NCBI RefSeq assembly: GCF_026130165.1
Contig: NZ_JAIHOM010000011.1
Span: 1-64,000, forward strand
Direction: 5' to 3'
Length of the DNA stretch: 64,000 nucleotides
DNA from: Spirulina subsalsa FACHB-351
GTDB taxonomy: Bacteria > Cyanobacteriota > Cyanobacteriia > Cyanobacteriales > Spirulinaceae
Numbering within the stretch: the first letter of the stretch is position 1; the number at the start of each line of letters is the position of its first letter. Below are positions 2,216 to 39,030 of the stretch, one piece after another. The notes beneath the pieces are model-generated. The model was given only the letters and a program-made list of their open reading frames with translations. It had not been told where the DNA came from and did not search any database. The translations under genes and the position numbers were made by a program.

Positions 2216-3250
2216 ATGGAATTTCAGCAATTAATTACCCACTTAGGTGTAGACCCCAGTCAAACCAGTTTAGCCCAGCAACCGGATCTCAACCCGGAGA
2301 TTCAAGCCGTCTGTGCCGTATATGAGGCAACGCCGGAATCCCTAAGTTATGTGGAGGGAGCAAAATATGCCCAGTGGATTAGTCAAACGGCGGCGAATAG
2401 CCTTATTTTGCCTCCAGATCCGGCATTCCAAGCCGAAGCCACACAACGGGGGATTGCTTGGTTAGCCACTCCTGAACCCCGTTTATTGTTTGCTCGGGCG
2501 ATCGCACTATTTTATCAACCCTACCGACCGAAACCCGCAATTGACCCCACAGCGGTGATTCATCCCAGCGTGGTGTTCGGAGAGTCTGTCTATATTGGCA
2601 GTCATGTTGTGATTGGTGAGGGGGCAAAAATTGGCGATCGCGCTTGTCTTCATCCCAACGTGGTGATTTATCCCGATGTGGAGATTGGGGAAAACACCAC
2701 GATCCATGCTAACGCTACGATCCACGAACGAACCCAAATCGGGGCGAATTGTATGATTCACAGTGGGGCCGTCATTGGGGGGGAAGGGTTTGGCTTTGTT
2801 CCCTCCGCCCAAGGATGGGTCAAAATGGAACAATCGGGGCGAGTGGTCTTGGAAGACGGGGTAGAAGTGGGGAGTAATAGCACCGTAGATCGTCCGGCCG
2901 TGGGAGAAACTCGCATTGGTCGCAATACCAAACTCGACAACCTCGTACAAATTGGCCACGGTTGCAAAATAGGCACCAATACGGTGATTGCGTCACAAGC
3001 AGGCATGGCTGGAGGGGTGAAAGTGGGGAATGGGGTAATTTTGGCGGGTCAGGTGGGAATTGCCAACGAGGCCGTAATTGGAGATGGTGCGATCGCCACT
3101 GCCAAAGCGGGTATTCATAACAACATCAAGGCCGGGGAAATTGTCACAGGCATCCCGGCCTTACCTCATAAAGTCTTCCTCAAGGCCAGTGCCGTCTATC
3201 AGCACTTACCAGAAATGTACAAGACTTTACGGCGTTTAAAGCGAGGATAG
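2216..3250 (+). CDS. lpxD: UDP-3-O-acylglucosamine N-acyltransferase LpxD
   Basis: 344 aa. LpxD adds the second acyl chain, from acyl-ACP, to UDP-3-O-acyl-glucosamine in lipid A synthesis. The N-terminal 100 residues form the uridine-binding LpxD domain. From about residue 108 the protein is a run of hexapeptide repeats making a left-handed beta-helix (IDPTAVIHPSVVFGESVYIG, then IGDRACLHPNVVI and so on). The catalytic histidine is in the conserved IGHGCKIG stretch. The C-terminus is a helical tail with LPEMYKTLRRLKR. No other lpx gene is adjacent. It is cytoplasmic and full length for the family. Confidence 0.95.
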   Translation: MEFQQLITHLGVDPSQTSLAQQPDLNPEIQAVCAVYEATPESLSYVEGAKYAQWISQTAANSLILPPDPAFQAEATQRGIAWLATPEPRLLFARAIALFYQPYRPKPAIDPTAVIHPSVVFGESVYIGSHVVIGEGAKIGDRACLHPNVVIYPDVEIGENTTIHANATIHERTQIGANCMIHSGAVIGGEGFGFVPSAQGWVKMEQSGRVVLEDGVEVGSNSTVDRPAVGETRIGRNTKLDNLVQIGHGCKIGTNTVIASQAGMAGGVKVGNGVILAGQVGIANEAVIGDGAIATAKAGIHNNIKAGEIVTGIPALPHKVFLKASAVYQHLPEMYKTLRRLKRG

Positions 3251-3254
3251 GGAG

Positions 3255-3281
3255 TCGGGTTCGTAGTTGCGCTTTAGCGCC
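3255..3281. repeat. Dispersed repeat with GCGCTTTAGCGC palindrome
   Basis: TCGGGTTCGTAGTTG followed by the palindrome GCGCTTTAGCGC. Variants of this 27-bp sequence recur in opposite orientation at 26500-26526, 26572-26598 and 41336-41352, always outside or at the end of genes. Confidence 0.75.
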
Positions 3282-3317
3282 CAATCGGGAGAGGGGGAGA
3301 GGGGAAGCAATTATCAA

Positions 3318-3342
3318 TAGATCGCCCTTAGGCGTTGATCAC
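3318..3342 (+). repeat. Orphan half of the CRISPR repeat
   Basis: Read on the plus strand, these 25 nt match the last 25 nt of the CRISPR repeat (in its leftward-transcribed orientation) from the array at 15618-16521 at 24 of 25 positions. The single difference is a G-to-C change in the 4-nt loop of the CGCC/GGCG hairpin; the stem and the terminal TTGATCAC handle are unchanged. The stop codon of the minus-strand pentapeptide gene (3339-3341) lies inside it. The first 12 nt of the repeat are absent, and no second copy or spacer-like periodicity is visible nearby. Confidence 0.8.
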
Positions 3343-5396
3343 AGTTCAAGACCCAGTAACCTGGCAATCTTAGGCAGGATTTCCGAGGCATCCATTAACG
3401 GTCCCGGGGTGGATAAATCAATTAAACTCCCTTTGAGGAGATGGAGAGCGGTTTTAGCAGCTTTACGGTGGCTACTGTCGGGATTCTCTAACCCCACTTC
3501 GGCGAGGATGCGAATTTGTTCGAGGGCGGTGATCTGATCGTCTTCGCTCAATTCTGAGGTGGCGACTAAGATGTTTTGTAATTGTTGGAGAAATTCGGCG
3601 AGTTTAAGGGCTTTAGGGGTGTTGGTGGCTTGGAGGCCAATGATGGCATGGTGGGTTAGGTGCTGGGTGCGGGTGAGAAGGGTTTCGGGGGGGGCGGGGG
3701 TGGGTTTTTCGCTGCCAAAGACAGCCCAAGGATCACTATTTCGGGGACTGGGGGGACGGGTGAGGGCGGTGATAATCATGGTTTCGAGGTTACGGACGCG
3801 ATCGCCTTCTAAAATCCCCGATAAGCCAATACTACTGTCGGGCATGAATTTGAACTGGTTGTAAGTGTGGAAATATTCCGCACTCAACAGGGAATGATCT
3901 ACCACTTCGGCGGTTTTCACCCGCAATAACAGGTTCTGCCCCCGTTTTTCTAGGGCGACCAATTCTAGACGGGCTTCGGGATACAATTCCTCTAGTTTCT
4001 TGTAGGCGATCGCAATGGAACGAGGATCCACCCCCTGAGTATGGTACAAGTCTAAGGTGTGGGAAATGGGCTTAATAAACTCCACAAAGTCCCCCGGTGC
4101 AAAGGTTTCCCGGTAATTATCCGGTTTCCGGCGCGGATTGGGCTGATCTGGGGTAGGAACGTGGAGAAACACATACTGACAGTCTATAAAATCTAAGCGG
4201 GTGGTATTGGTCACACCCCAATCCTCCAAATAAGCCCCCGTCAGAGAAGCCCGCGTTAAGTCCGCCCCATCGAGTTGAGTCTGCTTGAAAATCGCTCCCG
4301 TTAAGTCCGTATTCACCAAGTTGGCATAACTCAACACCGCCCCTGTAAAGTCCGCTTGGGCTAAATTTGCCCCCTCTAAATAAACTCCTTGTAAATTTTT
4401 GTGCCTAAATACTTGACTTGCACCCTGACCTGTGATAAGTAAGCGACGAATCTGGGCATCTTGTAAATAAGTGTCCCCAGTGCGCACAAGGCTATAACGT
4501 TTGAGACGGAACCATTGAGTCCGGGTGAGAATCGCCCGACGGAGGTCTACCCCCTTTAATTCCGCTTGGTAAAAGTTGACATAGGAGAGGTTCGCCCCTT
4601 GGAAATTCGTGCCTTTAATCGCTGCTAGGGCAATAGCGAGGTTATAAATAAAAGCTTGTTTGCGATCGCCAGACAACGCCTGCCAACCCACATAAGTTCC
4701 CACCATTGCCCCCACCCCAGCCCAAATCAGAGAGAGCAATTTCACCTCATTGCCCGGCAGAGGAATCATCCCGATTTGCACATTGGCCCCCGCCATTGCC
4801 CCCGGAATCGTACCCAGCAGCGCCAACAATTCTGTCGCCGCCACCGCCCCAAAACCGGCCACCGCCATAGCCAAAGCCGCCGACACCGCCACCCCCAAAG
4901 TTGTCCCCACCCCAATGGCTAAGGCCACCCCCATAATAACCGCCATAATAATCGGATTCGACCCCGCCCCAGCCCCCGCGTAGGCTGTCGCCCAGACCAA
5001 AATCACCACCCAGAAACCCATCGCCACCAGCGCCCCCGTCGCCTTGGGCAACCCTTGGCGCGCCGTCATCCCGTAGAAAATCCCTAAAACCACCACCTCC
5101 ACCAGCCCAATTAAAATATCCCCCGGGTGGAGATTTTGCAGCACATTAAATACAATACTGCCCATAAAAGCCGAAATGAGGGCGCAAGATCCCGACAACA
5201 GACAACAGCCCCCAATCAACGTCAACACCCAACGCCCTTGTAATCCTGTGCGAGCGTAACTAAAATTGGCTTCCGCTAAATTGGCTCCCCGAAAGTCTGC
5301 ACTGCGTACATCTGCACGGCTAAAATCTGCCCCGCGTAAATCTTGATTTTGGAAGGAAGCACCGCATAGATTTTGACCGGAGAAATCGGTGGACAT
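3339..5396 (-). CDS. Pentapeptide-repeat protein split by a membrane domain
   Basis: 685 aa starting MSTDFSGQNLCGASFQNQDL. Residues 1-50 are pentapeptide repeats (A[D/N]Lxx type: RGADF, RSADF, RGANL, AEANF). Residues about 55-240 are strongly hydrophobic, rich in Gly and Ala, with several membrane helices. Pentapeptide repeats resume at about 255-395 (FQGANL, LEGANL, LTGAIF, LDGADL). The C-terminal 290 residues are soluble and contain NYRETFAPGDFVEF, a region that follows pentapeptides in other cyanobacterial proteins of this type. Function is unknown; membrane localisation is inferred. The stop codon sits within the orphan CRISPR-like sequence. Upstream (5440-5480) is a short direct repeat of AACAGTCAATCATC. 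Confidence 0.85.
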   Translation of the reverse strand: MSTDFSGQNLCGASFQNQDLRGADFSRADVRSADFRGANLAEANFSYARTGLQGRWVLTLIGGCCLLSGSCALISAFMGSIVFNVLQNLHPGDILIGLVEVVVLGIFYGMTARQGLPKATGALVAMGFWVVILVWATAYAGAGAGSNPIIMAVIMGVALAIGVGTTLGVAVSAALAMAVAGFGAVAATELLALLGTIPGAMAGANVQIGMIPLPGNEVKLLSLIWAGVGAMVGTYVGWQALSGDRKQAFIYNLAIALAAIKGTNFQGANLSYVNFYQAELKGVDLRRAILTRTQWFRLKRYSLVRTGDTYLQDAQIRRLLITGQGASQVFRHKNLQGVYLEGANLAQADFTGAVLSYANLVNTDLTGAIFKQTQLDGADLTRASLTGAYLEDWGVTNTTRLDFIDCQYVFLHVPTPDQPNPRRKPDNYRETFAPGDFVEFIKPISHTLDLYHTQGVDPRSIAIAYKKLEELYPEARLELVALEKRGQNLLLRVKTAEVVDHSLLSAEYFHTYNQFKFMPDSSIGLSGILEGDRVRNLETMIITALTRPPSPRNSDPWAVFGSEKPTPAPPETLLTRTQHLTHHAIIGLQATNTPKALKLAEFLQQLQNILVATSELSEDDQITALEQIRILAEVGLENPDSSHRKAAKTALHLLKGSLIDLSTPGPLMDASEILPKIARLLGLEL

Positions 5397-15617: not shown

Positions 15618-16521
15618 GTGATCAACGCCTAACGGCGATCTAAGGTTAACTCACTTCTTCTTGTGATATTCCTAGTTCTTTTCTTCTTGTGATCAACGCC
15701 TAACGGCGATCTAAGGTTAACTCACCTGCAACCGGGATCGACCGCGATCCGATTCCCCCTGTGATCAACGCCTAACGGCGATCTAAGGTTAACTCACTTC
15801 CCTTCTTTTTCCTTTCGGTAGCCTCTTTTACTCGTGATCAACGCCTAACGGCGATCTAAGGTTAACTCACCCATCGTTTTTTGTTATATTCTTCTAATGT
15901 TTTTTGTGATCAACGCCTAACGGCGATCTAAGGTTAACTCACATAGGAAATAACCCTCAAAATGATTACGAAAATTATAGTGATCAACGCCTAACGGCGA
16001 TCTAAGGTTAACTCACTCTTCTGGGGTCGGGGGTCTATATGACTGTTTGTCGTGATCAACGCCTAACGGCGATCTAAGGTTAACTCACACAGACGACTAT
16101 TGTTTTGCATTTGCATTATCTGGTGATCAACGCCTAACGGCGATCTAAGGTTAACTCACAAGAACTGGGACGCGGGTCGATTTGAAAGATTTCGTGATCA
16201 ACGCCTAACGGCGATCTAAGGTTAACTCACTTATGGGCGATCGCATAAAACCCTTGGCACTCCTTTGTGATCAACGCCTAACGGCGATCTAAGGTTAACT
16301 CACAGACCGTAGGAAATGGCGGGGTGATTGTCCAATTGCCTGTGATCAACGCCTAACGGCGATCTAAGGTTAACTCACAAAAAAGGAGACACCCATGTAC
16401 GATAAAGATCAAAGTGATCAACGCCTAACGGCGATCTAAGGTTAACTCACAAGCTCGTCTTTGTAAGCCCAGTACCTCTGCACAGTGATCAACGCCTAAC
16501 GGCGATCTAAGGTTAACTCAC
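15618..16521 (-). CRISPR. CRISPR array, 13 repeats and 12 spacers
   Basis: Thirteen identical 37-nt repeats begin at 15618, 15689, 15761, 15834, 15906, 15980, 16052, 16123, 16194, 16267, 16342, 16414 and 16485. Spacers are 34-38 nt. On the plus strand the repeat starts GTGATCAACGCC, contains CGCCTAACGGCG (a 4-bp stem with a TAAC loop) and ends GTTAACTCAC, so both ends share GTGA/TCAC. A leader-like region lies on the right, so transcription is probably leftward, with crRNA handles ending TTGATCAC and newest spacers at the right. The left end has no degenerate repeat. No cas gene lies anywhere in the window, so the subtype cannot be assigned from context. Confidence 0.98.
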
Positions 16522-16790
16522 AGCACCCGCCAAAACCCTTACAGGACAACACGCCTCAGACAGTTTTGCAAGCACCCCCACCACTCCGACCCAATTAACC
16601 CCATACTACACCATTTTTCGCTAAATCGCAACAGCCCAAACCCAACCCCCATCAAGGGTTCAGGATTTTGCAAGCACCTCCCGCCTCACCCAAACCCCCT
16701 CTAAGCCTTATCCCATAAAACTTACAGCCATTTTGCTTCCCCTTTTTCCCCCAACAGTCAGAGGTGCTTGCATTTTTGTCCCCAACAGGC
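16522..16790 (-). promoter_or_regulatory. Probable CRISPR leader
   Basis: This non-coding stretch abuts repeat 13. TTTTGCAAGCACC occurs at 16564-16576 and again at 16666-16678, and its core recurs inverted as GGTGCTTGCA at 16763-16772. Read leftward it has the GGTGCTTGC-AAAA and GTAAGGGTTTT elements I associate with cyanobacterial CRISPR leaders. The left flank of the array is only 6 bp from bioY, leaving no room for a leader there. Orientation is inferred from this. Confidence 0.6.
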
Positions 16791-16792
16791 AG

Positions 16793-16821
16793 GAAAAAAC
16801 CACACCCCTCCAAGAGTGTGG
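16793..16821 (-). terminator. Rho-independent terminator of the hox operon
   Basis: On the minus strand CCACAC (from 16821) pairs with GTGTGG (to 16800) and is followed by TTTTTT. It lies about 50 bp after the hoxH stop and would insulate the leader from hox transcription. Confidence 0.85.
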
Positions 16822-23708: not shown

Positions 23709-24665
23709 TCAACGCCGCCGCACCTGCACCGCCGGAACCCACAAATTCAAACTCGTACCATCCAAACGGTACCATCCGGCCACAAGCTCCTCCACTCGCA
23801 CCTTCGTCCCATCAGGTAAAGAAGCCCCCACAGGCTGGGACTCATAATTTGGACCCGCCCGCACAACCGCCCCACTCCCCGGTGCAATTATTTCCCCATT
23901 GGCCATTTCACAATCCCGAAAAACCCGCGCCTCCGTTTCTCCACCCGAATTAGAATGAGGCGACGGACTCGGATTATTCACCACGGTTCCCCCCGTACCA
24001 ATCCCCAGCGCCGTCAATGTTTCCCGCCCCACCTTACCATCCACATACTCCAGCCCTTGCGCCCGTTGGAACGCCAGCACTGCCTGTTCCGTTTGCACTC
24101 CAAACACCCCATCAGCCCCCGTCGGCCCCAGATTATAGCCCAACGCCACTAAACGGCTCTGCACCGTCTCTACTAACGGCCCTCGCGCCCCCACCGTGAG
24201 AAATCCCTGTTCACCTAGTCCCACCTCCTCCCCACTATTGCCATTTCCCGACGCTCCCCCAGTCGTTACCTCCTGCCCAATCGTATAGGGACCAAACAGC
24301 CAATTTCCATTCTCCAACTGTAACCAAGTCCCTTGAGCCGCTATCACTTCCACCCGTTGACCATTGCCCAAACAAGTCACTGTCCCAAACTCCATCCCCG
24401 GCCCTCTGCGTATATTCAAGCAGCCCCCATGAGGCGTTCTCACTTGGCGCACCGTTGCCCCAGATATATGGGGAGGAAGCAACACCGAGAGGACAAGGGT
24501 CATTAAAACCGTATAGAGCCAAATGCGAAGGGTAAAACCTTGAAACGCCCAATCAGAACGAGAAAAATCTAGAGGAGAAAAATCCAGCCATTCTAGAGAC
24601 ATTGACCCAGACTCATCAGACCCAGAACCCATCTGAGAAGCGTAGGAATAAGCAAAAGCATCCAT
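23709..24665 (-). CDS. SH3 / peptidoglycan-binding membrane-anchored protein
   Basis: 318 aa from ATG at 24665 (MDAFAYSYASQMGSG). A single membrane helix (LRIWLYTVLMTLVLSVLLPP, about 47-66) is followed by a bacterial SH3 domain (CLNIRRGPGMEFGTVTCLGN, WLQLENGNWLFGPYT), then a PG_binding_1 domain (VQSRLVALGYNLGPTGADG, FGVQTEQAVLAFQRAQGL), a Ser/Pro linker and a second SH3-like segment (VVRAGPNYESQPVG). It is probably anchored in the inner membrane with its domains on the cell wall. No catalytic domain is visible, so it is likely a binding or scaffold protein. Confidence 0.82.
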   Translation of the reverse strand: MDAFAYSYASQMGSGSDESGSMSLEWLDFSPLDFSRSDWAFQGFTLRIWLYTVLMTLVLSVLLPPHISGATVRQVRTPHGGCLNIRRGPGMEFGTVTCLGNGQRVEVIAAQGTWLQLENGNWLFGPYTIGQEVTTGGASGNGNSGEEVGLGEQGFLTVGARGPLVETVQSRLVALGYNLGPTGADGVFGVQTEQAVLAFQRAQGLEYVDGKVGRETLTALGIGTGGTVVNNPSPSPHSNSGGETEARVFRDCEMANGEIIAPGSGAVVRAGPNYESQPVGASLPDGTKVRVEELVAGWYRLDGTSLNLWVPAVQVRRR

Positions 24666-24864
24666 GAGAGACTCCGCAACAATCAAAATCTAGGGGGACT
24701 TCTTCCATTGTAGCCATTAACAGATTGACCAATCTTCGATTCAGGTTTCCTTGATTCAGGACAGAAGCACAGGTTAAGAATAGCGTAGTACGTCCGATGG
24801 CTTAAAATAAACCTAGGCGTTTTGATACTTTCCCCAAGCAATATTGAGTTTATACGGAAAGAAA

Positions 24865-25575
24865 ATGGTTCAAGCACAAGAAAAAATCACTTACGATTTC
24901 ACGGTGGATATTTTGTCAGGATCTTTGAAAGGTCGTCAGTTTACGGGATTTTTCACCTATGACTCTTCAGCACTCCAAGGAGAGGAAGAGGAAACCATCA
25001 AAGCAGAGGAAGTAGAATTTAATTATTTGAGCCAATACCGTCGCGAGAATCCAGGGCCTAATCTTATATTCAAGAGGGGAAACTTCCAGAGAATGGTTTG
25101 GGTCGATGGGAAACAAACTGAACGCTTTGGGTTCAATGGGGGGTTTAATCGACGGCAGTTTTGCCGAGCTAGTGAGGTTTTTATCCGAGAAGGAAAGGAT
25201 TATTTTGGCTATCTTGATCGGTATACTTATGTTGATGGTGCGGGGGTCATCACCTATGTTAAACGGGATTCGGTTCTACTGGGCGATCGCAAGAATCCAG
25301 AATCTGGTGATCATCCCGGAGATTCCACAACCGTTACAGAAATTCCAAGCGCGGTATTGTTACGCTGCGAAAAGATATCGGGAAAGTTGCGAATTCGGGT
25401 GATTTCCGAAGGGTACAATCGGGACGTGAATGTGCAATTTCCCCGCAGTATCCGAGAAGTTGGGGCGCTTTATGTGGTGGATGAGGTGGAATTATCCAGC
25501 AATGGCAAGTTCTACCGTACTGTGGGTCAGATTCGCCGTCTGGTGTTACCGGAAGATATCACGACGGATCACTGA
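24865..25575 (+). CDS. Conserved hypothetical, N-terminal IxYDFTVDI domain
   Basis: 236 aa from ATG at 24865 (MVQAQEKITYDFTVDILSG). The first 60 residues (YDFTVDILSGSLKGRQFTGF, FTYDSS) resemble the beta-rich N-terminal module found in cyanobacterial PEP-CTERM-type proteins, but there is no signal peptide and no C-terminal sorting signal. The C-terminal 70 residues (LRIRVISEGYNRDVNVQFPR, REVGALYVVDEVELS) look like a separate small beta domain. It overlaps the convergent gene 25559-26479 by 17 nt. Function unknown. Confidence 0.65.
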   Translation: MVQAQEKITYDFTVDILSGSLKGRQFTGFFTYDSSALQGEEEETIKAEEVEFNYLSQYRRENPGPNLIFKRGNFQRMVWVDGKQTERFGFNGGFNRRQFCRASEVFIREGKDYFGYLDRYTYVDGAGVITYVKRDSVLLGDRKNPESGDHPGDSTTVTEIPSAVLLRCEKISGKLRIRVISEGYNRDVNVQFPRSIREVGALYVVDEVELSSNGKFYRTVGQIRRLVLPEDITTDH

Positions 25576-26479
25576 TGAGGGACAAAAGGCGATCGCTTAA
25601 AACCCGACGCTCGGAACCGGGGCGAATCCATTGATGCTTGGAGACATCATAATCCCCTTGTTGTAATAACACCTCCTGTAACTCCGCCTTTTGTGCCGCA
25701 TCTAAACGGGGGAGCATCTTTTCCATTACTTCAAGGGCGTTCCGTTGTTCAAAGGCGGAACGAGAATCGCCAATAATCCTTAAAATATCGGGAAAATAGG
25801 CCGCCGCTTCCTCCATTTTGCCTAAACAGGATAACCCCACCAAACGCCGTCCGTCATGTTCAGAATTTAAGTGACTGCTAATCTCCGTATCCGTCCACCC
25901 CGCTTGAAAAACGAGCGATCGCATTGCTCCGGCGATCGCCTCAAACAAAAAATTGCGCCTTGTTCCCGTCGGAGCAGACTGGAGGGCTTGATAGCGTTGG
26001 GCTAACTGCTTCATCTCCTGACGCGCTTGTTGATGGGTGAGCATCCCCCCATACTCCTGAGCAAGTTGTTCCTCCATCTCCTGTAAATGGACTCGTTGGG
26101 CCCCTAATGCCGTTTTTTGGGCATCTTCTAACACCGTATGCACCGCCCCCACCATCTCATCTTTCGTTTCACGGGTGATGAATTGCAATAGCGGGTCAAT
26201 TCCCCCACTACTCAACTCCGCGGCCGGGGTTTTAATCATCCCCCCCACCAAAGCGAACAGTTGCAATACCGCAGGCAACCAGGCCACTAATAAAATCAAA
26301 ACTGTTGTATTGTTAACGCCAAAGGTCAGATCCCATCCCTCATTTTGCGTCCAGTGAACCTGAAACAAACTGATGAAACTAATCAACAAAATGGGTTTTA
26401 ACCAGTTACCGGGCAGACGAACGGCTAACTGTAGCAGTTCGGTTAGGGTTTCTAAGGGTTGACGGGGAGGGGTTTTCAT
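25559..26479 (-). CDS. Conserved hypothetical membrane protein
   Basis: 306 aa. Two N-terminal hydrophobic helices (LKPILLISFISLFQV and TTVLILLVAWLPAVLQLFALVGG) are followed by about 220 mostly helical, charged residues, including a coiled-coil-like stretch (LQEMEEQLAQEYGGMLTHQQ) and a HEAT-like tail (RRLVGLSCLGKMEEAAAYFP). No catalytic motif is visible. The soluble part is probably cytoplasmic. Family not recognised. Confidence 0.65.
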   Translation of the reverse strand: MKTPPRQPLETLTELLQLAVRLPGNWLKPILLISFISLFQVHWTQNEGWDLTFGVNNTTVLILLVAWLPAVLQLFALVGGMIKTPAAELSSGGIDPLLQFITRETKDEMVGAVHTVLEDAQKTALGAQRVHLQEMEEQLAQEYGGMLTHQQARQEMKQLAQRYQALQSAPTGTRRNFLFEAIAGAMRSLVFQAGWTDTEISSHLNSEHDGRRLVGLSCLGKMEEAAAYFPDILRIIGDSRSAFEQRNALEVMEKMLPRLDAAQKAELQEVLLQQGDYDVSKHQWIRPGSERRVLSDRLLSLISDPS

Positions 26480-26499
26480 GGTTGATCTGGCAATCTGGT

Positions 26500-26645
26500 G
26501 CGCTGAAGCGCAACTACGAACGGGAATTACGAACGGGAACTACAAATGGGAACTACAAACGGGAATCCGGTGCGCTGAAGCGCAACTACGAACGGGAATT
26601 ACAAACGGGAACTACAAACGGGAACTACAAACGGGAACTACAAAC
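26500..26645 (+). repeat. Expanded GCGCTGAAGCGC / CGGGAACTACAAA repeat
   Basis: Two copies (26500, 26572) of the dispersed repeat GCGCTGAAGCGCAACTACGA head tandem runs of an 11-12 bp unit, CGGGAACTACAAA and variants. The last units overlap the 3' end of the acetyltransferase gene. The same head sequence is at 3255-3281 and 41336-41352, without the expansion. Confidence 0.8.
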
Positions 26646-27240
26646 GATTTGGGAGCATTTTTCGGGCATAATGGGGCTTACAAGGACTCCCCCAAGCGAC
26701 TTGTTCCTCGGGGATATTGCCGAAGACGCTACTTCTTGCCCCAATCACAGCATTAGCGCCAATTTTCACCCCCGGAGCGACAAAACAATCCGTTGCCACC
26801 CAGGCCCCATTGCCGATGAAAATGGGGGCGGTTTCGAGGGTAAAACGAGGGGTCGTGATGTCATGGCTGCCCGTGCAGAGATAACATTTCTGGGAGATGA
26901 CACACTGACGACCTACTACAATCCGATCCAAACTATAAAACACCACATCATCCCCCACCCAAGTATAATCGCCGATTTCCACCTTCCAAGGGTAGGTAAA
27001 CCGGGCTGTGGGGCGGATTAATACGCCTTTGCCGATTTTGGCCCCAAAGAGGCGCAAAATGGCGCAACGTAGACCACTTAAATTATGGGGAGTTAGGGGG
27101 AAAGTAATAGCTTGAACCAACCACCAGACTAAAATCCACAGGCCAGATTTTCCCCGTTCAAAATTAGACTGGTCATAATGGCGTAAATCTACAAAGGGTT
27201 CACTGCTTAAAATGGGGTCTGGTTTGGGGGCATGACTCAT
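26638..27240 (-). CDS. WcaF/HpsU-like polysaccharide acetyltransferase
   Basis: 200 aa. A left-handed beta-helix acetyltransferase: LRCAILRLFGAKIGKGVLIR, TYPWKVEIGDYTWVGDDVVF, then LCTGSHDITTPRF and hexapeptide repeats ending VAWGSPCKPHYARK. This is the WcaF-type pattern; cyanobacterial relatives are annotated in hormogonium polysaccharide (hps) clusters. It presumably O-acetylates an exopolysaccharide precursor. Its start overlaps the stop of the upstream glycosyltransferase in an ATGA arrangement. It is third of three genes. The C-terminal residues fall in the edge of the expanded repeat. Confidence 0.82.
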   Translation of the reverse strand: MSHAPKPDPILSSEPFVDLRHYDQSNFERGKSGLWILVWWLVQAITFPLTPHNLSGLRCAILRLFGAKIGKGVLIRPTARFTYPWKVEIGDYTWVGDDVVFYSLDRIVVGRQCVISQKCYLCTGSHDITTPRFTLETAPIFIGNGAWVATDCFVAPGVKIGANAVIGARSSVFGNIPEEQVAWGSPCKPHYARKMLPNRL

Positions 27241-28223
27241 TGTTGTTCTGTGACCGTTTGGGGGACAGAGGGAGGATTAGAGGGGGTGTTTGAGGGGGGA
27301 TGTTGGACATCGACGTTCAAACTGCCGCCAAATTTGCGCAATTCGTAAAGTTTGACTCCGATTTGATACTCATATTGACTGAGTAAACGACCGTAAATAT
27401 AGCCGGGAGTGCCATCTAAAAAGCCGAGACGCAGAATATAAAACAAAATGAAGCGCACGAAGGGTTTAAAGGGTAAACGAACCCAGATTTTTTTCAGGTA
27501 GCGTTTGCGTTGGACGGCATCCCCAAATAGGTTCGCGCCAATGTTGTCGCCGTCCATTTTTCCGGTCAGGATATTGTAATAAACTTGGGCTTCCCAGTTG
27601 GAGTAACGGTTATGGCGGGCTAACCATTCGTAGATGTCCCGAAAGTCGATGTGCAGCATATCTTCTTTGAGGTATCCGGTTTTCCCTTCAATGATCACAT
27701 GCTCGTGAACTTCGTTGTCTCCGGTGTTGCGGATGTTTTCAGTTTTCAGGTTTTCGTAACGGCCTTTTTTGTGCCGAAACAGACGCATATTCCAGTCGGG
27801 ATATTTCCCCCCGTGGCGAATCCATTTGCCGAGGAAAAATACTTTCCGGTTGAGGAAATAGCCGTCATATTCAGGGTCTTGGATGCGTTGGGCGATTTCG
27901 TCCCAGAGTTCGGGGGTGATGCGTTCGTCACAGTCTACAATGAGAACCCACTCGTTGCGGAAGGGGAGATTTTCTAGACCCCAGTTTTTTTTCTTGGGCC
28001 AACGGCCGTTAAAGTGGAATTGAAAGACTTTTGCGCCGTAACTTTCGGCAATTTCTACGGAGCGATCGCCACTCTGAGAGTCCACCATAAACACTTCGTC
28101 GGCTCGGGTCAAGCTTTCGAGACAAGCGGGTAGATTGCGCTCCTCATTTTTGGCGGGAATGAGTACGGAGACGGGGATTTTGTCTATCTTAGAAGTCATA
28201 TTAGAGCGGGGGTAATGGGACAT
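27237..28223 (-). CDS. Family 2 glycosyltransferase
   Basis: 328 aa. GT-A fold: VSVLIPAKNEERNLPACLES at the nucleotide-sugar site, EVFMVDSQSGDRS, and VLIVDCDERITPEL as the DxD-like motif. KKNWGLENLP and ILRLGFLDGTPGYIYGRL are typical of the group related to waaE/KdtX-like transferases. The proline-rich tail is disordered. The start codon at 28223 overlaps the previous gene's stop by 1 nt (TAATG), supporting this start. It probably builds an exopolysaccharide; donor and acceptor unknown. Confidence 0.85.
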   Translation of the reverse strand: MSHYPRSNMTSKIDKIPVSVLIPAKNEERNLPACLESLTRADEVFMVDSQSGDRSVEIAESYGAKVFQFHFNGRWPKKKNWGLENLPFRNEWVLIVDCDERITPELWDEIAQRIQDPEYDGYFLNRKVFFLGKWIRHGGKYPDWNMRLFRHKKGRYENLKTENIRNTGDNEVHEHVIIEGKTGYLKEDMLHIDFRDIYEWLARHNRYSNWEAQVYYNILTGKMDGDNIGANLFGDAVQRKRYLKKIWVRLPFKPFVRFILFYILRLGFLDGTPGYIYGRLLSQYEYQIGVKLYELRKFGGSLNVDVQHPPSNTPSNPPSVPQTVTEQQ

Positions 28224-29161
28224 TAGGATTTAAAGGGTTTGGGCAAGAGCATTCCGGCCACGGCTGTTTTAAGATACCCAATCTGACCATAGGCATACAC
28301 TAGATTATCAAAGCGGATGGCCGGATCTTTAAAGTATTTAAGGGATTTATAAAGACCGCGCACAATGCGTTCCCCTCCCCGGGAAAATTGGACGAGTCCA
28401 GCCCGTCCGGCCAGTTGTTCCCGATAGGCCTCGCTGACTCCTTGCCACCAGCCCCGACGCATAAACCAAGTCCGTTGCAGACGGTCAGGGGTGACGTTGT
28501 GGGCGACGAGGGCGGCGGGTAAATAAGCGACTTGCCAACCTTGTTCTAGGGCAAGTTCGGTCATTTGCAATTCTTCATTAGACAGTAGATTTTTGCCCAC
28601 TCGTCCTAAGTTGGGGTCAAATCCGCCAATTTGCTCTAAAAAGCTGCGCCGAATGGCGTAATTTAGACCCCGAGGGGTATAGATGGGGTTAGTGATGGGG
28701 GTGATTTCTGGGCCGAGGTCGTAGGCGCCGAGGTTGCCTGCGAGGCCGTCGGAGAGCCAAGGGGGGGGGCTGGTGACTCCGGGAGGCCAAAGCAGGGTAA
28801 CTTTTCCTCCAGCAATGGCGAGTTTTTCGTTGGCTTGAAATCCGGCGAGGAGGGCGCTTAACCAGCCGGGGGTGGCTACGGCATCATCATCTAGGTAGGC
28901 GAGGATCTCTCCTTGGGCAACTCTTGCGCCAGTATTGCGGGCGACTGACAGCCCCACTTGGGCCTCGTGGACGTACTGAAGCCGAGGATGGGGTAAACGG
29001 GCTTCGGTGACTTCTTTGGTGCGATCGCTCGAAGCATTATCAATGACAATCACTTCGTAGCTGGGGGCATCTTGGGCGAGGAGGCTATCTATGGCTGCGC
29101 CCAAGTATTGATCCCGGTTATGGGTACAAATAATGGCGGAAATGGGTAGGGAGTCAACCAT
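28223..29161 (-). CDS. Family 2 glycosyltransferase
   Basis: 312 aa. SAIICTHNRDQYLGAAIDSL and EVIVIDNASSDRTKEV open a GT-A domain; ILAYLDDDAVATPGWLSAL is the DDD metal motif; the acceptor region has NYAIRRSFLEQIGGFDPNLG. It is first of a three-gene minus-strand unit (two glycosyltransferases and an acetyltransferase), with 1-4 nt overlaps between all genes. The unit resembles parts of cyanobacterial hormogonium polysaccharide clusters, but I do not assign an hps letter. Confidence 0.84.
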   Translation of the reverse strand: MVDSLPISAIICTHNRDQYLGAAIDSLLAQDAPSYEVIVIDNASSDRTKEVTEARLPHPRLQYVHEAQVGLSVARNTGARVAQGEILAYLDDDAVATPGWLSALLAGFQANEKLAIAGGKVTLLWPPGVTSPPPWLSDGLAGNLGAYDLGPEITPITNPIYTPRGLNYAIRRSFLEQIGGFDPNLGRVGKNLLSNEELQMTELALEQGWQVAYLPAALVAHNVTPDRLQRTWFMRRGWWQGVSEAYREQLAGRAGLVQFSRGGERIVRGLYKSLKYFKDPAIRFDNLVYAYGQIGYLKTAVAGMLLPKPFKS

Positions 29162-29309
29162 CCGAGTTAGGGGTAGGGGGTAGAAGTGGGGGGCTAGGGC
29201 TTGCTATAGGTATCAAGACCAAAAACCCCAAGATTATTCTGAGAAACCGGGCTGTTTACTGCTAAGTTGACCCAAGTGAAGGCTTGCGCCCTAGGGTCAG
29301 GGGGTGGAG

Positions 29310-30014
29310 TTAATGATCTTTCAAGCTACTATGAACAATAACGAGGGTTTCCGCTAGACTACTCAGACGGTTTTCGAGGGATTGTTTTTTCTTGAGCAGT
29401 TGACGGAGTTTTTGATAACGTGCGATCGCCATACTGACACTTGCCACTTGATCCGCCGGACAGGGTTTTGTCCACAAACGCCCTTTTTCGTCTAATCCAC
29501 AGAGACGATAACCCGGACGAGAACCCAAGTCAGGGGCAGGGCTAGATAGGCTGTCTTGTCCCTGATGAGACTCTAACCAACCGTCCACAATCGGTCCTTC
29601 AAGATACAGGTCTTGGATTTGCACTAATATTTGTTTTAGCTCTCGTTGCCAACCCACTACAATTTCTTCAATTTCTTTCAATAAGTTAGTGGCTAAAGCG
29701 GGGTTGACACTGTGCCGATGGTTACTCAGTTGTAGGGACTTTAATTCCGGCAGTGTCGGAACCGCACTCGGCGCAGGGGCAACCGTTCTGACTTGTTGGG
29801 GTCTGACCTTTTGGGGGAGGGAAACAGCGCGGGGCGGGGGGGGCGGGGGAACTTGAAGAGCAGCCGCCGGACGCTGGGGGGCGGGCGCAGCCACCGGATA
29901 AGCTGGAGCCGGGGCTGGTTTACGCTCCTTTACAGCCACCCCATACTTTTGCTGATGGGCGAGTTGCTCCAACTGTTCTAAGGTGCTTTCGATTCGTTGC
30001 AGTTCTGGTCTCAT
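29310..30014 (-). CDS. Conserved hypothetical with Pro/Ala-rich linker
   Basis: 234 aa from ATG at 30014 (MRPELQRIESTLEQLEQLAH); an upstream extension to 30068 looks non-coding. A helical N-terminus is followed by a long Pro/Ala/Val-rich linker (about residues 30-95) and a C-terminal domain with helices (LATNLLKEIEEIVVGWQREL) and YRLCGLDEKGRLWTKPCP. Two coiled-coil-like helices close the protein. Cyanobacterial hypothetical; no family recognised. Confidence 0.6.
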   Translation of the reverse strand: MRPELQRIESTLEQLEQLAHQQKYGVAVKERKPAPAPAYPVAAPAPQRPAAALQVPPPPPPRAVSLPQKVRPQQVRTVAPAPSAVPTLPELKSLQLSNHRHSVNPALATNLLKEIEEIVVGWQRELKQILVQIQDLYLEGPIVDGWLESHQGQDSLSSPAPDLGSRPGYRLCGLDEKGRLWTKPCPADQVASVSMAIARYQKLRQLLKKKQSLENRLSSLAETLVIVHSSLKDH

Positions 30015-30156
30015 GCTCCGCTCTTTGGCTACTGGGAGTAGAATACTGAAAACAAGGGGGAAAAACAAGACTGGCTGTTTCTGTTCCCACCATTGTACGG
30101 TTTTCCCTTAAATTGTTCACCTGAATGTCGCTGTTGTGGCTGGCACTCTATCCGTT

Positions 30157-30711
30157 ATGCTCCATTCTCCTACTATCATTTTAGTAACCGGCCCGGCGAG
30201 TTCGGGGAAAAGCGAGTGGGCGGAATATCTGGCGATGCAGTCGGGAAAACGGGTGTCGTATCTCGCGACAGCACGGTTAAATCTTGAGGATCCCGAATGG
30301 CAGGCGAAGATTGCCAAACACCAAGCCCGTCGCCCACCAGATTGGCAGATGTTATGGGTACCGGAGGAATTGACGGCGACTTTAGCCCAGAATCGGGCTG
30401 AGGATTGTTTTTTAGTGGATGCTTTGGGGACTTGGGTGGCTAATGGTTTGGAGTGGCCCGAGGAGGAATGGCAAGACCGGGTGAGGGATTTATTACAACT
30501 CTTGCCGACTTTGCCGGGGGTGGTGATTTTGGTGGGGGAAGAGACGGGCTGGGGATTGGTTCCGGTGTATCCGTTGGGGCGACAATTTCGCGATCGCCTC
30601 GGTTCTCTGCTCCGTTACATTGGGGCTATGGCCTCTACGGTTTATTTGGTCACGGGGGGCTATGCGCTGGATTTAACTCAACTGGGGATTCCTTTGCCGA
30701 AGAATCCCTAG
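30157..30711 (+). CDS. cobU: Adenosylcobinamide kinase/guanylyltransferase CobU
   Basis: 184 aa from ATG at 30157 (MLHSPTIILVTGPASSGKSE). The P-loop GPASSGKS is followed by VSYLATARLNLEDPEWQAKI, the conserved YLATA segment, and HQARRPPDW, where His is the guanylylated residue. VDALGTWVANGLE and VGEETGWGLVP complete the CobU pattern. It phosphorylates adenosylcobinamide and transfers GMP to it in late cobalamin assembly. It stands alone here and no cobalamin riboswitch is seen upstream. The stop is followed by a partial copy of the GGGC-TGCTGAATAAC dispersed repeat. Confidence 0.9.
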   Translation: MLHSPTIILVTGPASSGKSEWAEYLAMQSGKRVSYLATARLNLEDPEWQAKIAKHQARRPPDWQMLWVPEELTATLAQNRAEDCFLVDALGTWVANGLEWPEEEWQDRVRDLLQLLPTLPGVVILVGEETGWGLVPVYPLGRQFRDRLGSLLRYIGAMASTVYLVTGGYALDLTQLGIPLPKNP

Positions 30712-30842
30712 GGCCTACTGAATAACTTCGGGGGTCGCGCCTGCATTTTTGATGCAAAATGGGGAAAAAGACATTAAAATGAGCGGTACAATCCCCTGCC
30801 ATACCTTGCCTACCATCTTTGAGGTCGGAGCAAAAAGCAACC

Positions 30843-31394
30843 GTGAATATTACAGAAAATCTAAATGTTAATAGCCTAAGAAGTGAAGTCTCTCGCCTCC
30901 GAGAAGAACTTCAAATGCGCGATCAACTGGTGCAGCAGTTATCCCAAGAACTCTTCCGACTGGTCAAGGGCAATACGAACTTTATGCCCCAGCCGGAAGT
31001 TTCTGAACGTCACAAGGCAGAAATGCGGATGTTGCGGGAACAACTGCAAGAAGTAGAACAACAAGTCACGTTCTATCAACAGCAGATTGCCGTGCGGGAT
31101 CAAGAAATTTATCAACTCCGCCAGTCGGTGCAGGAATTGACTGATCGTAGTCGGATGTTGGAACAAGCCCTGCAAGAAATGCCCCAAATTTACCGTCGCA
31201 AATTTGCTGAACGGATGGAGCCGGTGCGGGAGAAAATCGAACGTCTACAACGGGAAAATCGACAACTTCATGTTGAGTTACAAAGTGTTAGCTATCGGTT
31301 AGCGGTGAAAACCCGTCGCAATACATCTAAAGTAGATTTACCCAGTTTTTCCCGTCGTTTACCCGGCCCGATTCCCAGTTTCGGCACCATGTAA
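30843..31394 (+). CDS. Coiled-coil conserved hypothetical protein
   Basis: 183 aa from GTG at 30843; GGAG lies 12-15 nt upstream, and a TTG at 30819 is the alternative. The protein is almost all long helices: VSRLREELQMRDQLVQQLSQ, ELFRLVKGN, then heptads EMRMLREQLQEVEQQVTFYQ, ending in a basic tail (VKTRRNTSKVDLPSFSRRLP). It belongs to a small family restricted to cyanobacteria as far as I recall. It is probably structural; function unknown. A terminator follows at 31420. Confidence 0.7.
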   Translation: MNITENLNVNSLRSEVSRLREELQMRDQLVQQLSQELFRLVKGNTNFMPQPEVSERHKAEMRMLREQLQEVEQQVTFYQQQIAVRDQEIYQLRQSVQELTDRSRMLEQALQEMPQIYRRKFAERMEPVREKIERLQRENRQLHVELQSVSYRLAVKTRRNTSKVDLPSFSRRLPGPIPSFGTM

Positions 31395-31419
31395 CTGGGG
31401 AGACAGCATGGTATTTTAA

Positions 31420-31446
31420 AGGGGCAAAATTTAGCCCCTCTTTTTA
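31420..31446 (+). terminator. Rho-independent terminator
   Basis: AGGGGC (31420-31425) pairs with GCCCCT (31434-31439) and is followed by CTTTTT. It ends the coiled-coil gene transcript 26 bp after its stop. Confidence 0.85.
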
Positions 31447-31455
31447 GGTTTTTTT

Positions 31456-32079
31456 ATGCCGCCAGTATTGATTGTTTGTGATCAGGTCAATCCCCCCTTA
31501 CCCCATGCTTTAGCTTTAAAAGAGGCGATCGCCTCCTTAGAGCCCGAGGTAGACATTGCCCTGATTACCCCCGAGGATCTAGACCTGGATCTTGATGCCG
31601 TCTACTGTCCCCTTACCCTACACATTCCCCCAGAATTACCCCTCCCCTCCCCCAGTATTTTTCTCGCTTGTCAGGACTTAGCGGAACAACAGCAATGGGT
31701 GGAAACCGAATTAGACTATGAAACCGGCCCAGGTAATTATTGGTTGCCTATTGTTTGGACGATTAAGGGCCCCCTCTATGGGGAAGTGATTGGATGGGAA
31801 AATGAAGGGTATGTGCAACCGATTGATCTCCCGGATGATCAACGTCAACCCCTCTATCATCTCGCCTACGACCTGTTACACCACTTAAACGCCCCCCCGG
31901 CCGTTTATACCCTCCAATTTGCCTTGAACGACCGAGCTATTGTCTTTGATCGGCTGTTTCCCTTCCCCACAGAATGTGCGATCGCCTCCCTAAAAATCCA
32001 AGAACCGGATCTTTTGGTCTGTCATTGGTTATGCTTAACCCATCAGCCCATTTTGGATCTAACCATCCTGCCCCAATAA
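31456..32079 (+). CDS. Conserved hypothetical protein
   Basis: 207 aa starting MPPVLIVCDQVNPPLPHALA. Acidic and Leu/Pro rich, with two apparent halves: residues 1-80 (alpha/beta, LALKEAIASLEPEVDIALIT) and 90-207 (FALNDRAIVFDRLFPFPTEC). No signal peptide, membrane segment or catalytic motif recognised. It is followed 25 bp later by the DUF4332 gene and probably shares its transcript. Confidence 0.6.
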   Translation: MPPVLIVCDQVNPPLPHALALKEAIASLEPEVDIALITPEDLDLDLDAVYCPLTLHIPPELPLPSPSIFLACQDLAEQQQWVETELDYETGPGNYWLPIVWTIKGPLYGEVIGWENEGYVQPIDLPDDQRQPLYHLAYDLLHHLNAPPAVYTLQFALNDRAIVFDRLFPFPTECAIASLKIQEPDLLVCHWLCLTHQPILDLTILPQ

Positions 32080-32104
32080 ATGGGATATTCCTTGAGGGAA
32101 CATT

Positions 32105-32539
32105 ATGCCTCCTGCTTCCAATCGAGTCACCATCCAAGCTTGTAGTTGGGATCTCGAACAACTACCCGGTTTGAACGAAGAATTGCATCGCCAATTCCAG
32201 TCTCTGGGTTTAGAGACAACAACCGCCCTGCTCCATGAGGGAACCACTCCTGAACAGTGTAATGCGATCGCCAGTCAACTCCATTTGCCTCTCCAACAAG
32301 TGAAAAAATGGGTGGCCATGTCCGATTTAGCCCGTTTACCTAGCGTCGGCTGTGAATATTGCGGGATCCTACTCCACTCCGGCATTGCCTCCGTGAGTCA
32401 ACTCGCTCACACCCCTGTTCACCGTTTACACCGTCAAATCCTCCGGATGCAAGTCTCTACCCTCCAACGGCGAGATTTATGTCCCCCCGTCCAAGAAGTT
32501 CAAAAATGGGTCAGAGAAGCCCAAGTTCTGCAATCCTGA
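32105..32539 (+). CDS. DUF4332 helix-hairpin-helix protein
   Basis: 144 aa. Tandem helix-hairpin-helix-like segments (DLEQLPGLNEELHRQFQSLG, LARLPSVGCEYCGILLHSGI, VSQLAHTPVHRLHRQILRM) match the DUF4332 pattern, in which such motifs may bind nucleic acid. CEYC is a possible metal or redox pair. Role unknown. It ends ahead of a bidirectional hairpin shared with the convergent Bax-inhibitor-like gene. Confidence 0.72.
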   Translation: MPPASNRVTIQACSWDLEQLPGLNEELHRQFQSLGLETTTALLHEGTTPEQCNAIASQLHLPLQQVKKWVAMSDLARLPSVGCEYCGILLHSGIASVSQLAHTPVHRLHRQILRMQVSTLQRRDLCPPVQEVQKWVREAQVLQS

Positions 32540-32602
32540 TAGAGTCAAGTCCTTTGGTGGCTTGTCATGAAATAGGGAATGATGTGGCTCAACAGTAACA
32601 AG

Positions 32603-32639
32603 AATCTCCCCCTAAGCTTTGCTATAGAGGGAGATTTTG
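32603..32639. terminator. Bidirectional terminator
   Basis: AATCTCCC (32603-32610) pairs with GGGAGATT (32629-32636), followed by TT on the plus strand. It lies between the convergent DUF4332 and Bax-inhibitor-like genes. Confidence 0.65.
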
Positions 32640-32717
32640 GCGAACTACCCCATCCTGCCGTTGGCGAGGATAGGGAATTCCGCAACACTTTTGCTAAATA
32701 TCCCGTTAGTCTGAGGA

Positions 32718-33446
32718 CTAATCGCGACCATTGAGCGCAATAATCAGCCGTAGGATAAAGATAAACAGGTTGATGTAGGTTAAATACATTGAGAGTGCCG
32801 CAGACAGATATTGCTCGTCACGATAGGCACGGGGCAGGATGAAGAAGTCTAACACCGAAGCCCCAGCGAAGATGAACACCCCGGCGGCAGAAATCCCTAC
32901 TTCTAAGAAAGTGGGAGTCCCTATACCAAACAGGGCAAAACCGAGTTGACCGACCAAAACCACTAACAGGGCAATCAGGGCGATGCTGATGGTCTTACCG
33001 AGGGCAAAACCATCTTCTTCTGAGAGGTTGGAACCGATACTGCGTCCGGCAATGAAGGCGACACCACAGCCCAAGGCGGCGATCGCAATTCCTTGGAAAC
33101 CTACTCCAGAAGTCCCCAAAGCGTAGGCAATTAAACCACTCAGGGTATAGCCCGATAACAAGCTATAAGTGGCCAGCAAAGGTAAAGCAACGGAGTTATT
33201 GCCCTTCTCTGCCACACCCCGCGCCACAAAAAAGAGAATCAATTCCACGACTAGCGCCGCGAAAAAGGTGGGGAAGAAAATACTTGGGTAATTTTGCAAT
33301 ACCCCCAACCCACCATAAACACCAACGGCGGTTAAAACTAAACCCCCTCCTAAATAAGGCAAGGCATTAGAGATCACATTCGGCCCAATCAGGGCTTTAT
33401 TGCGTGCCGCTTTGGCGGTTTCTAGGAAATTACTACTATTGGCCAT
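32718..33446 (-). CDS. Bax inhibitor-1/YccA-like membrane protein
   Basis: 242 aa from ATG at 33446, preceded by GGGAGA; an upstream TTG at 33458 is less likely. About seven membrane helices (LPYLGGGLVLTAVGVYGGLG, FFPTFFAALVVELILFFVAR, FALGKTISIALIALLVVLVG and others) and the loop SVLDFFILPRAYRDEQYLSA with AALSMYLTYINLFIFILRLI match the BI-1 family. These proteins are implicated in calcium leak and membrane stress; the cyanobacterial role is not defined. Confidence 0.85.
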   Translation of the reverse strand: MANSSNFLETAKAARNKALIGPNVISNALPYLGGGLVLTAVGVYGGLGVLQNYPSIFFPTFFAALVVELILFFVARGVAEKGNNSVALPLLATYSLLSGYTLSGLIAYALGTSGVGFQGIAIAALGCGVAFIAGRSIGSNLSEEDGFALGKTISIALIALLVVLVGQLGFALFGIGTPTFLEVGISAAGVFIFAGASVLDFFILPRAYRDEQYLSAALSMYLTYINLFIFILRLIIALNGRD

Positions 33447-33740
33447 ATTTTCTCCCAATGACTAAAGTCAGGAAAAACTTTAGATGAACAGTGTTTTTTC
33501 TATTCTACCTTGCCAATTTTGGGGGGGGAGGTGAGGAGATCCCAACCCCAAAAAACCCCCTTACGGTCTACATAACTTAACAATTCTTTAAGAGGTTAGC
33601 CCCTAGATTCAGTAGTTCTACGGAGAATCTTTGACTCGGTGAATCGGATTTCCGTGAAACAACGATGGTATATACCCCGTTCAGTTTCGACAATAGAAGT
33701 AGTCGGGATTACTAATCTAGGGTAAAGTGTTGGGACTATT

Positions 33741-34517
33741 ATGTTAACTTCTGCTGCATCTCTCCAAACTCGTGGACTTGAATTATTGGTCGCTTACGCT
33801 AAAAATCCGTCATTAGAGTTACGGAATCAATTAGTCCGACTCAATTTAGGGTTAGTACGGAAAGTAGCTCATCAGATGAGAGAGCAATGCAATGAACCCT
33901 ACGAAGATTTAGAACAAACGGGATATTTAGGCTTAATTCGGGCTATTGAACGGTTTGATATTCAACAAGGTTATGCGTTTAGTTCCTTTGCCTTACCCTA
34001 TATTCGAGGAGCGATGCTGCACTACTTACGGGATAAAGCCAATACGGTGAGGATTCCTCGTCGTTGGCAAGAGTTATATTCTCGGGGGAGAAAGCAGCAG
34101 AAGCAGTTAACGGCTTGTTTAGGTTATACACCGAGCGATCGCGAAGTTGCCCAATCCCTAGGCGTTTCCCTAGAAGAATGGCGAGATTGTAAAGCCGCCG
34201 CGAAACAATGTAATCTCGTCAGTCTAGACGCTTATCTTACCACTTCCAGTGAATCCCCCCTCACCCTCGCCGACATTTTGCCCGATGGTGATGAGTTTTC
34301 CCGTCGCCAACAACAAGAAGATTTCATCAATATCCAAAGCGCCTTAAGTCAACTCAACGACAAGGAAAAACTCGCCATTGAGTTAGTTTTTCTAAAAGAA
34401 TACTCCCGTCGCGAGGCCGCCCAGGCCATTGGCATTAGTCCCATGACGGTGACTCGTTATGTTAACAAAGGGATGAAACAGTTAGAGTCACTGCTCACCC
34501 CCTCACAGGTGGCGTGA
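33741..34517 (+). CDS. sigF: Group 3 sigma factor, SigF-like
   Basis: 258 aa. Region 2 is LVRLNLGLVRKVAHQM to GLIRAIERFDIQQGYAFSSF, with core-binding and -10 recognition elements; region 3 is VRIPRRWQELYSRGRK to YTPSDREVAQSLGVS; region 4 is LSQLNDKEKLAIELVFLKEY plus the HTH RREAAQAIGISPMTVTRYV. This layout without region 1 and with IPRRWQEL is typical of cyanobacterial SigF, which in Synechocystis is needed for pilus gene expression and motility. No anti-sigma gene is adjacent. Confidence 0.88.
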   Translation: MLTSAASLQTRGLELLVAYAKNPSLELRNQLVRLNLGLVRKVAHQMREQCNEPYEDLEQTGYLGLIRAIERFDIQQGYAFSSFALPYIRGAMLHYLRDKANTVRIPRRWQELYSRGRKQQKQLTACLGYTPSDREVAQSLGVSLEEWRDCKAAAKQCNLVSLDAYLTTSSESPLTLADILPDGDEFSRRQQQEDFINIQSALSQLNDKEKLAIELVFLKEYSRREAAQAIGISPMTVTRYVNKGMKQLESLLTPSQVA

Positions 34518-34652
34518 TGGATGTAGGAGGGAATAAGTTGAAATTTGCTGTCTCACTCATCCACTGTTTTTCTAACATTCAACAGTTCTGATTTTCTACA
34601 ACTATTTTTTAAGTCGGGCAAGTTCAGCGTTGAAAGCCACTCAGAGCGCTCT

Positions 34653-35636
34653 CTAATCTTTTAACCAACGGGCTGCATCTTTGGCGTGATAGGTTAAGAT
34701 TAAATCGGCTCCAGACCGTTTAAAGGCGGTCAGGGTTTCTAGGACAATCTTCTGTTCGTCCACCCAACCATTTAAGGCCGCGGCTTTGACCATTGAATAT
34801 TCTCCGGACACATTGTAGGCGGCGACAGGTAACTGGGTAATTTCTTTGACCCGCCAGATAATATCCATATAGGCTAGGGCTGGTTTGACCATTAACATAT
34901 CGGCCCCTTCAGCAATGTCTAATTCTACTTCCTTGAGGGCTTCGCGGCCATTGGCGGGGTCCATCTGGTAGGTTCTGCGATCGCCAAATTGGGGAGCCGA
35001 TTCCGCCGCATCCCGGAATGGCCCGTAATAAGCTGAGGCGTATTTTGCCGCATAGGACAAAATGGGGGTATCTTGGAATCCGGCCTCATCCAGTCCTTGG
35101 CGAATGGCCTGGACAAAACCATCCATCATCCCTGACGGTGCAATAATATCTGCCCCCGCTTTAGCTTGGGAAACGGCCGTTTTTTTCAACAGTTCTAATG
35201 TGGGATCATTCAGCACTCGTCCCGTTAAATCGCCCACCTCTAAATAACCACAGTGACCGTGACCTGTGTATTCACAAAGGCAAGTATCCGCAATTACCAC
35301 CAAATCCGGCACCGCTTCCTTGACGGCTGAGGCGGCTTTCTGGACAATGCCGCAATCATGCCAAGCGCCTGTTGCGTCGTCATCTTTGCTGTCGGGAATA
35401 CCAAATAAAATAATGCTGGGAATGCCTAAATCGTAAACTTCCTTAGCTTCTTCCACAATTTTGTCTACCGACAACTGATAGACTCCGGGCATAGAGGTCA
35501 CTTCTTTAGCAACACTGGTACCCGGCACTGCAAATAAGGGATAAATTAAATCATTGACTGTGAGGAGATTTTCCTGCACCATCCGGCGAAGATTAGCCGT
35601 TTGCCGCAGACGACGAGGACGTTGAATGGGAAACAT
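34653..35636 (-). CDS. hemB: Delta-aminolevulinic acid dehydratase HemB
   Basis: 327 aa from ATG at 35636 ([20 protein letters not shown]), which gives the usual length; the frame opens 14 codons earlier. It condenses two ALA molecules to porphobilinogen for heme and chlorophyll. Schiff-base lysines are in SYAAKYAS and [26 protein letters not shown] keeps the three-cysteine zinc site, unlike the plant magnesium-type enzymes. Single gene, divergent from yggT. Confidence 0.96.
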
Positions 35637-35843
35637 AGGGTTTTGATCTAAAAAGTTTGTGTGAAAGTATCTGCTCAAAATAGTTTAAGGCGATCGCGTT
35701 CCCCCCTTTGATCCTTTTTTGGTGTTTTGTAATGTTTCGCAACACATCCCCTCACCCAGACCGGAGCGCCCACCGCGCTGTGAATTGATTTCCCCTTGCT
35801 ATACAATCAGAAAGGAAGCGCGTCACACGAGGATCAAAGCACT

Positions 35844-36122
35844 ATGTCGGATTGGGTTATCTTAGGGGTTGGACTCCTTTTAGGTCTATTGGTTTTCTTC
35901 TTTATCTTCCGGATCGTCCTCACTTGGTATCCCCAAGCAGAAACGACTCGCTTTCCTTTTAACGTTGTCGTCCTACCGACAGAACCTTTTTTGGCCCCTA
36001 CGCGCAAACTTGTACCCCCTGTGGGAGGGGTTGACATTTCTCCCATTTTATGGGTGGCTATTATCTCACTCCTGCGAGAAATTTTGGTTGGACAACAGGG
36101 ACTTCTGCGAATGTTTTTCTAA
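35844..36122 (+). CDS. YggT family membrane protein
   Basis: 92 aa from ATG at 35844, with GAGGA at 35829. Two membrane helices (VILGVGLLLGLLVFFFIFRI and the C-terminal VDISPILWVAIISLLREILV) flank the conserved loop VVLPTEPFLAPTRKLVPPVG, which is the YggT signature. Relatives in cyanobacteria and plastids affect nucleoid or thylakoid organisation; osmotic roles are reported in bacteria. Convergent with the DUF760 gene 13 bp away. Confidence 0.88.
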   Translation: MSDWVILGVGLLLGLLVFFFIFRIVLTWYPQAETTRFPFNVVVLPTEPFLAPTRKLVPPVGGVDISPILWVAIISLLREILVGQQGLLRMFF

Positions 36123-36135
36123 ACAATCGAGGATG

Positions 36136-38815: not shown

Positions 38816-38817
38816 GT

Positions 38818-38972: not shown

Positions 38973-39030
38973 GGTGGATTTTTCTCTCGCCGTCGAGTTA
39001 TCTTGGGCAAAGAGTGGGAGAAACGGAACT

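Follow-up and report, generated by a model that had tools for sequence, protein, structure and literature searches.

A half CRISPR repeat at a stop codon in Spirulina subsalsa, very probably the relic of a lost array end

A 25-nt piece of a type I-B CRISPR repeat lies at the 3′ end of a pentapeptide-repeat gene in Spirulina subsalsa FACHB-351, within the 64,000-nt stretch analysed here (the window) of a 5.26-Mb, 279-contig draft genome (G000). This half repeat is very probably the fossil of the leader-distal (trailer) repeat of an array that was lost in G000 and kept in G001, the near complete genome of the sole other member of the genus that was compared. Four observations form its basis: the sequence identity, the end of a G001 array in the same position and orientation, a cas-linked array elsewhere in G000, and the absence of a leader at the site itself. 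From them we infer that an array was ancestrally present here and by what kind of rearrangement it was removed. The feature is real but ordinary, an array relic; among the origins offered by an earlier sequence-only reading, the evidence strongly favours a decayed array end.

Table 1 Features of the window and related copies of the repeat in G000
Feature	Position	Strand	Remarks
lpxD-like acyltransferase gene	2216..3250	+	
Junction filler	3247..3317	.	GTAGTTGCGCTTTAGCGC-type dispersed repeat and AATTATCAAT tract, where G001 has array and leader
Orphan 3′ part (25/37 nt) of type I-B CRISPR repeat	3318..3342	+	TAGATCGCCCTTAGGCGTTGATCAC; 24/25 match; a G001 array ends at this codon
Membrane pentapeptide-repeat protein gene, 685 aa	3339..5396	-	Pfam Pentapeptide; half repeat provides the TGA stop
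CRISPR array, 13 repeats	15618-16521	-	Spacers 34-38 nt, leader at right; GTGAGTTAACCT... form
Array leader	16522..16800	-	TTTTGCAAGCACC motifs, shared with the leaders of the cas-linked G000 and G001 arrays
Second CRISPR array, 11 repeats	C22:48552-49314		GTGAAATAACCT... form
Solitary half repeat fused to leader-type stretch	C20:5670-5721 (repeat at 5697)		AAAAATGCAAGCACCTC
Solitary degenerate 37-nt copy	C60:1484-1520		GTGAAACAACCTTAGATCGCCGTTAGGCATTGCCCAC

The half repeat and the array end in the sister genome

The orphan corresponds to positions 13-37 of the 37-nt repeat GTGAGTTAACCTTAGATCGCCGTTAGGCGTTGATCAC, and its single mismatch falls in the loop, where the orphan has C, the G000 repeat G and the G001 repeat A. 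Searches of the window and the genome bear out the original claim of a near-perfect match to the last 25 nt of the repeat. Both the TTGATCAC 3′ end of the repeat and the CGCC/GGCG hairpin are unbroken in the orphan, and the TGA stop of the pentapeptide gene (3341-3339, minus strand) does lie inside the element, as had been noted. The 12 nt upstream of 3318 agree with the repeat at 5/12 positions, which is near chance; on this ground a decayed full-length repeat 5′ of the 25 nt was rejected. That a chance match is implausible also holds: matches within three mismatches number 0 in dinucleotide shuffles of the window, a reversed-pattern control gave 0 matches across the whole G000 genome, and a uniform-base estimate gives ~7e-7 for a genomic match with at most one mismatch. 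No Rfam families were found in the window.

The position of the orphan is explained by the sister genome. The pentapeptide ortholog in G001 (C2:648769-650823, plus strand) has 95% amino acid identity and 91.5% nucleotide identity right up to base 3343, and behind it lies an array of 37 repeats (C2:650839-653485), opposite in orientation to the ortholog. The repeat 3′ end faces the gene's stop in both genomes, and in G001 the leader is on the far side. In a pairwise alignment of G000 and G001, the gene runs to the codon before the stop and is followed by a 16-nt gap, after which the orphan aligns with the last repeat of the array over all 25 nt; the alignment does not clearly extend past them. 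The 16 extra nucleotides of G001 include a partial, repeat-like 12 nt (GGGATCAACGCC). On its leader side the G001 array is accompanied by a cas2-like ORF, a TnpB insertion, a cas4-cas1 fusion, cas5, cas8, cas3, cas6 and a WYL gene, a cas locus of type I-B/MYXAN. With four array ends (two per array) in 5.2 Mb, we estimate the probability of a coincidence in position within ~30 nt at ~2.5e-5. Neither a leader nor a second repeat is left around the G000 copy: similarity to a leader at the junction does not go beyond chance matches of 11-15 nt, and no second repeat was found between the orphan and 15618.

In the common ancestor, the leader-distal end of the main type I-B array would have stood directly behind the pentapeptide gene, as it does in G001. 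In the lineage of G000, a deletion or a recombination within the array may then have cut into the terminal repeat and removed all that lay beyond the cut, leader and cas genes included, and the broken end would have been joined via a dispersed repeat to the neighbourhood of lpxD. The leftover 25 nt would now serve only to end the reading frame and to begin the gene's 3′ untranslated region. Several points speak against a relic. The fragment is only 25 nt long and retains no spacer to link it to a particular array, its loop base differs from both repeats, and the G001 junction carries the additional GGGATCAACGCC, so the ends of the two genomes are not identical. The ancestral state also rests on two genomes, and the family outgroup (G003) has no repeat near its homologue.

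The junction and gene-order breakpoints

In G001, lpxD lies at 3.23 Mb and the pentapeptide gene at 0.65 Mb, and the interval 3252-3343 is therefore a breakpoint in gene order. The sequence that follows lpxD in G001 corresponds to contig C268 in G000. The breakpoint at the orphan is bridged by ~70 nt of dispersed repeat: a genome search with 2216-3317 returned 83 G000 matches, nearly all of them to the junction stretch 3247-3317. This repeat occurs dozens of times in the genome, a 279-contig draft could be misjoined at such a place, and the lpxD and pentapeptide sides could form a chimera of this kind. We consider such an assembly artefact improbable, however, as the right side of the 25 nt is joined to unique gene sequence, much as in G001, and the 25 nt are truncated at their left rather than running on into an array. 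Even with a wrong lpxD join, the relic would stay real.

The shared position could alternatively mean that the site drew a new array by off-target integration, in which case no array would have been lost. The presence of repeats at this codon in two species, together with the extra partial copy GGGATCAACGCC adjoining the gene in G001, favours such an ectopic seed. When Cas1-Cas2 integrate a spacer, however, they duplicate the leader-side repeat. Such integration would not yield a 25-nt half repeat that lacks both spacer and leader, and in G001 the whole row of 37 repeats separates the leader from this site; this origin is accordingly very unlikely.

Beyond the orphan itself, array relics may bear on rearrangement in the genus. 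Gene order relative to G001 breaks at 5/5 of the ends examined, namely the three relics and, in both G000 arrays, the trailer end. In a 20-kb control stretch (window 24000-43999), 7 breakpoints fall in ~16 gene intervals, at which rate five out of five has a probability of ~1-2%, for ends that were chosen post hoc. With breakpoints this common (7 in 20 kb), the link is weakly suggestive, and the coincidence is weak as proof that repeats cause rearrangement. It is doubtful that CRISPR arrays of the genus are preferred rearrangement breakpoints that leave half repeats as scars; if many such scars did mark breakpoints, they could be used to trace the movement of CRISPR loci around chromosomes.

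In the same control stretch, gene order compared with G001 is broken approximately every 3 kb despite ~90% nucleotide identity, and dispersed repeats occupy many of its intergenic sites.

Regulatory readings and known systems

The sequence-only reading had also proposed a delocalised crRNA-like unit or anti-repeat that regulates the gene or the array's own system. As a CreA-like element, the orphan would be transcribed rightward and processed by Cas6, with the sequence from 3343 onwards guiding Cascade to repress a gene. The intact TTGATCAC end and CGCC/GGCG hairpin would suit such a role, as would the effector genes of a type I-B cas locus in G000 (contig C214), and an association of CreTA modules with type I-B systems has been described (PMC9458426). 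The unit nevertheless lacks the 5′ twelve nucleotides of the repeat, a leader and a second repeat; there is no sigma-70-like promoter at 3100-3500, and no cas gene was recognised among the ORFs of the window. The supposed guide is the pentapeptide gene's own coding end, conserved in G001, so the bases from 3343 described as spacer-like are not added sequence. This guide has no near match elsewhere in the G000 sequence searched (best, 15/36 mismatches), and a second copy of the pentapeptide gene was not found in G000. None of these assumptions is needed by a relic, and a regulatory unit seems highly improbable.

Described solitary repeats have features that were not seen in the orphan. The CreA RNA of type I-B haloarchaea is linked to cas genes, carries a guide partly complementary to the promoter of the toxin, and has its own transcription (PMC9458426). 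The orphan resembles CreTA/CreA in its type I-B setting and in the occurrence of one or two repeat-like sequences that are not part of an array. It differs in that its window holds no recognised cas gene (these are on C214) and in that no promoter-like site accompanies it at 3100-3500; the bases following it are a conserved coding end, with no near match in the G000 sequence searched. Solitary repeat units, or Racr RNA anti-CRISPRs, occur in phages or plasmids, are intergenic, span almost the full repeat and are often preceded by a promoter; they are defined by at least 90% repeat coverage and an intergenic location (PMC10651486). Like them, the orphan is a lone repeat that belongs to no array and adjoins no cas genes. 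Unlike them, it lies in the chromosome, has 68% repeat coverage and overlaps a stop codon, and thus falls outside the definition in both coverage and location. A phage-borne solitary repeat was rejected, since a 23-mer of the repeat occurs in 0 viral contigs and the neighbours are chromosomal housekeeping genes.

Decaying systems offer a further parallel. In Escherichia and Salmonella, the arrays of decaying cas systems have shrunk to few or single, often degenerate repeats, and the degraded CRISPR/cas loci show deletions flanked by mobile elements (PMC2886076). The orphan differs from these loci in comprising less than one repeat, in standing at a rearrangement junction, and in a genome that still has an effector cas locus elsewhere. 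A nearly perfect, isolated half repeat next to a gene does not have to represent a regulatory RNA, and here one sister genome pointed to array decay instead. This calls for caution when genomes are scanned for ectopic or solitary repeats.

Sequences of the GCGATC type abound in cyanobacteria and GATCGCC in the repeat overlaps this motif, but a chance hit or a common HIP1-like palindrome behind the repeat has next to no probability, given the empty shuffles and reversed control, three solitary copies outside arrays in 5.26 Mb, and any match at all in only 6/119 genomes searched, nearly all within arrays.

Other copies of the repeat and the present-day arrays

Had the repeat derived from a genome-wide palindrome, as had been considered, dozens of dispersed copies would be expected. 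A search of the G000 genome within three mismatches instead gave only three solitary copies outside its two arrays, the orphan and two more diverged ones, and this origin is refuted, as copies occur in arrays and, beyond these, only as a few relics. The half repeat at C20:5697 has the identical internal break point to that at 3318, before AGATCGCC. Its TGCAAGCACC motif is otherwise confined to array leaders in the window and eight other G000 and G001 stretches scanned. Outside the genus, a genome of another family (G092) contains a two-repeat remnant at C1:226763-226870 and no further close copies, which shows that relics of this repeat family occur there too. The exact repeat core was found in one named record, the Geminocystis sp. 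GBBB08 MAG, in three copies.

The second G000 array, on C22, has the leader of the cas-linked G001 array, which runs on into a cas2 fragment, and its trailer adjoins rnhB; in G001, rnhB is at C2:10711, without an array. The cas2 gene near this array (C22:49383-49624) is interrupted after ~115 bp by an apparent IS605-type end. A similar IS605-type end interrupts cas4-cas1 on C214:1-423 after 99 residues, and residues 100-559 were absent from a search of the G000 genome. The effector genes cas5, cas7-like, cas8, cas3 and cas6 are present. The type I-B system of G000 thus appears to have lost its adaptation genes and kept its effectors, in keeping with its short arrays (11 and 13 repeats, versus 37 and 43 in G001). 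Other, distant Cas1 proteins are present in G000.

By its leader and its hoxH side, the array of the window is the ortholog of G001 array B. The two hoxH-side arrays (window 15618-16521 and G001 C2:2659542-2662623) occupy the same place on their leader side and contain 13 and 43 repeats, respectively; the neighbour on the trailer side (bioY) differs between the species. Shared spacers, sought to date the loss, number none between the G000 and G001 arrays, and related spacers were found only among the arrays of G001 itself. There, arrays A and B contain a few related, non-identical spacer pairs across and within arrays, such as TTTACTTTTCGATATCGCTGTTTTCAGAATCCTG and TTTATTTTTCGGTATCGCTGTTTTTCTAATCCGCG, a pattern that would fit repeated sampling of homologous phage sites.
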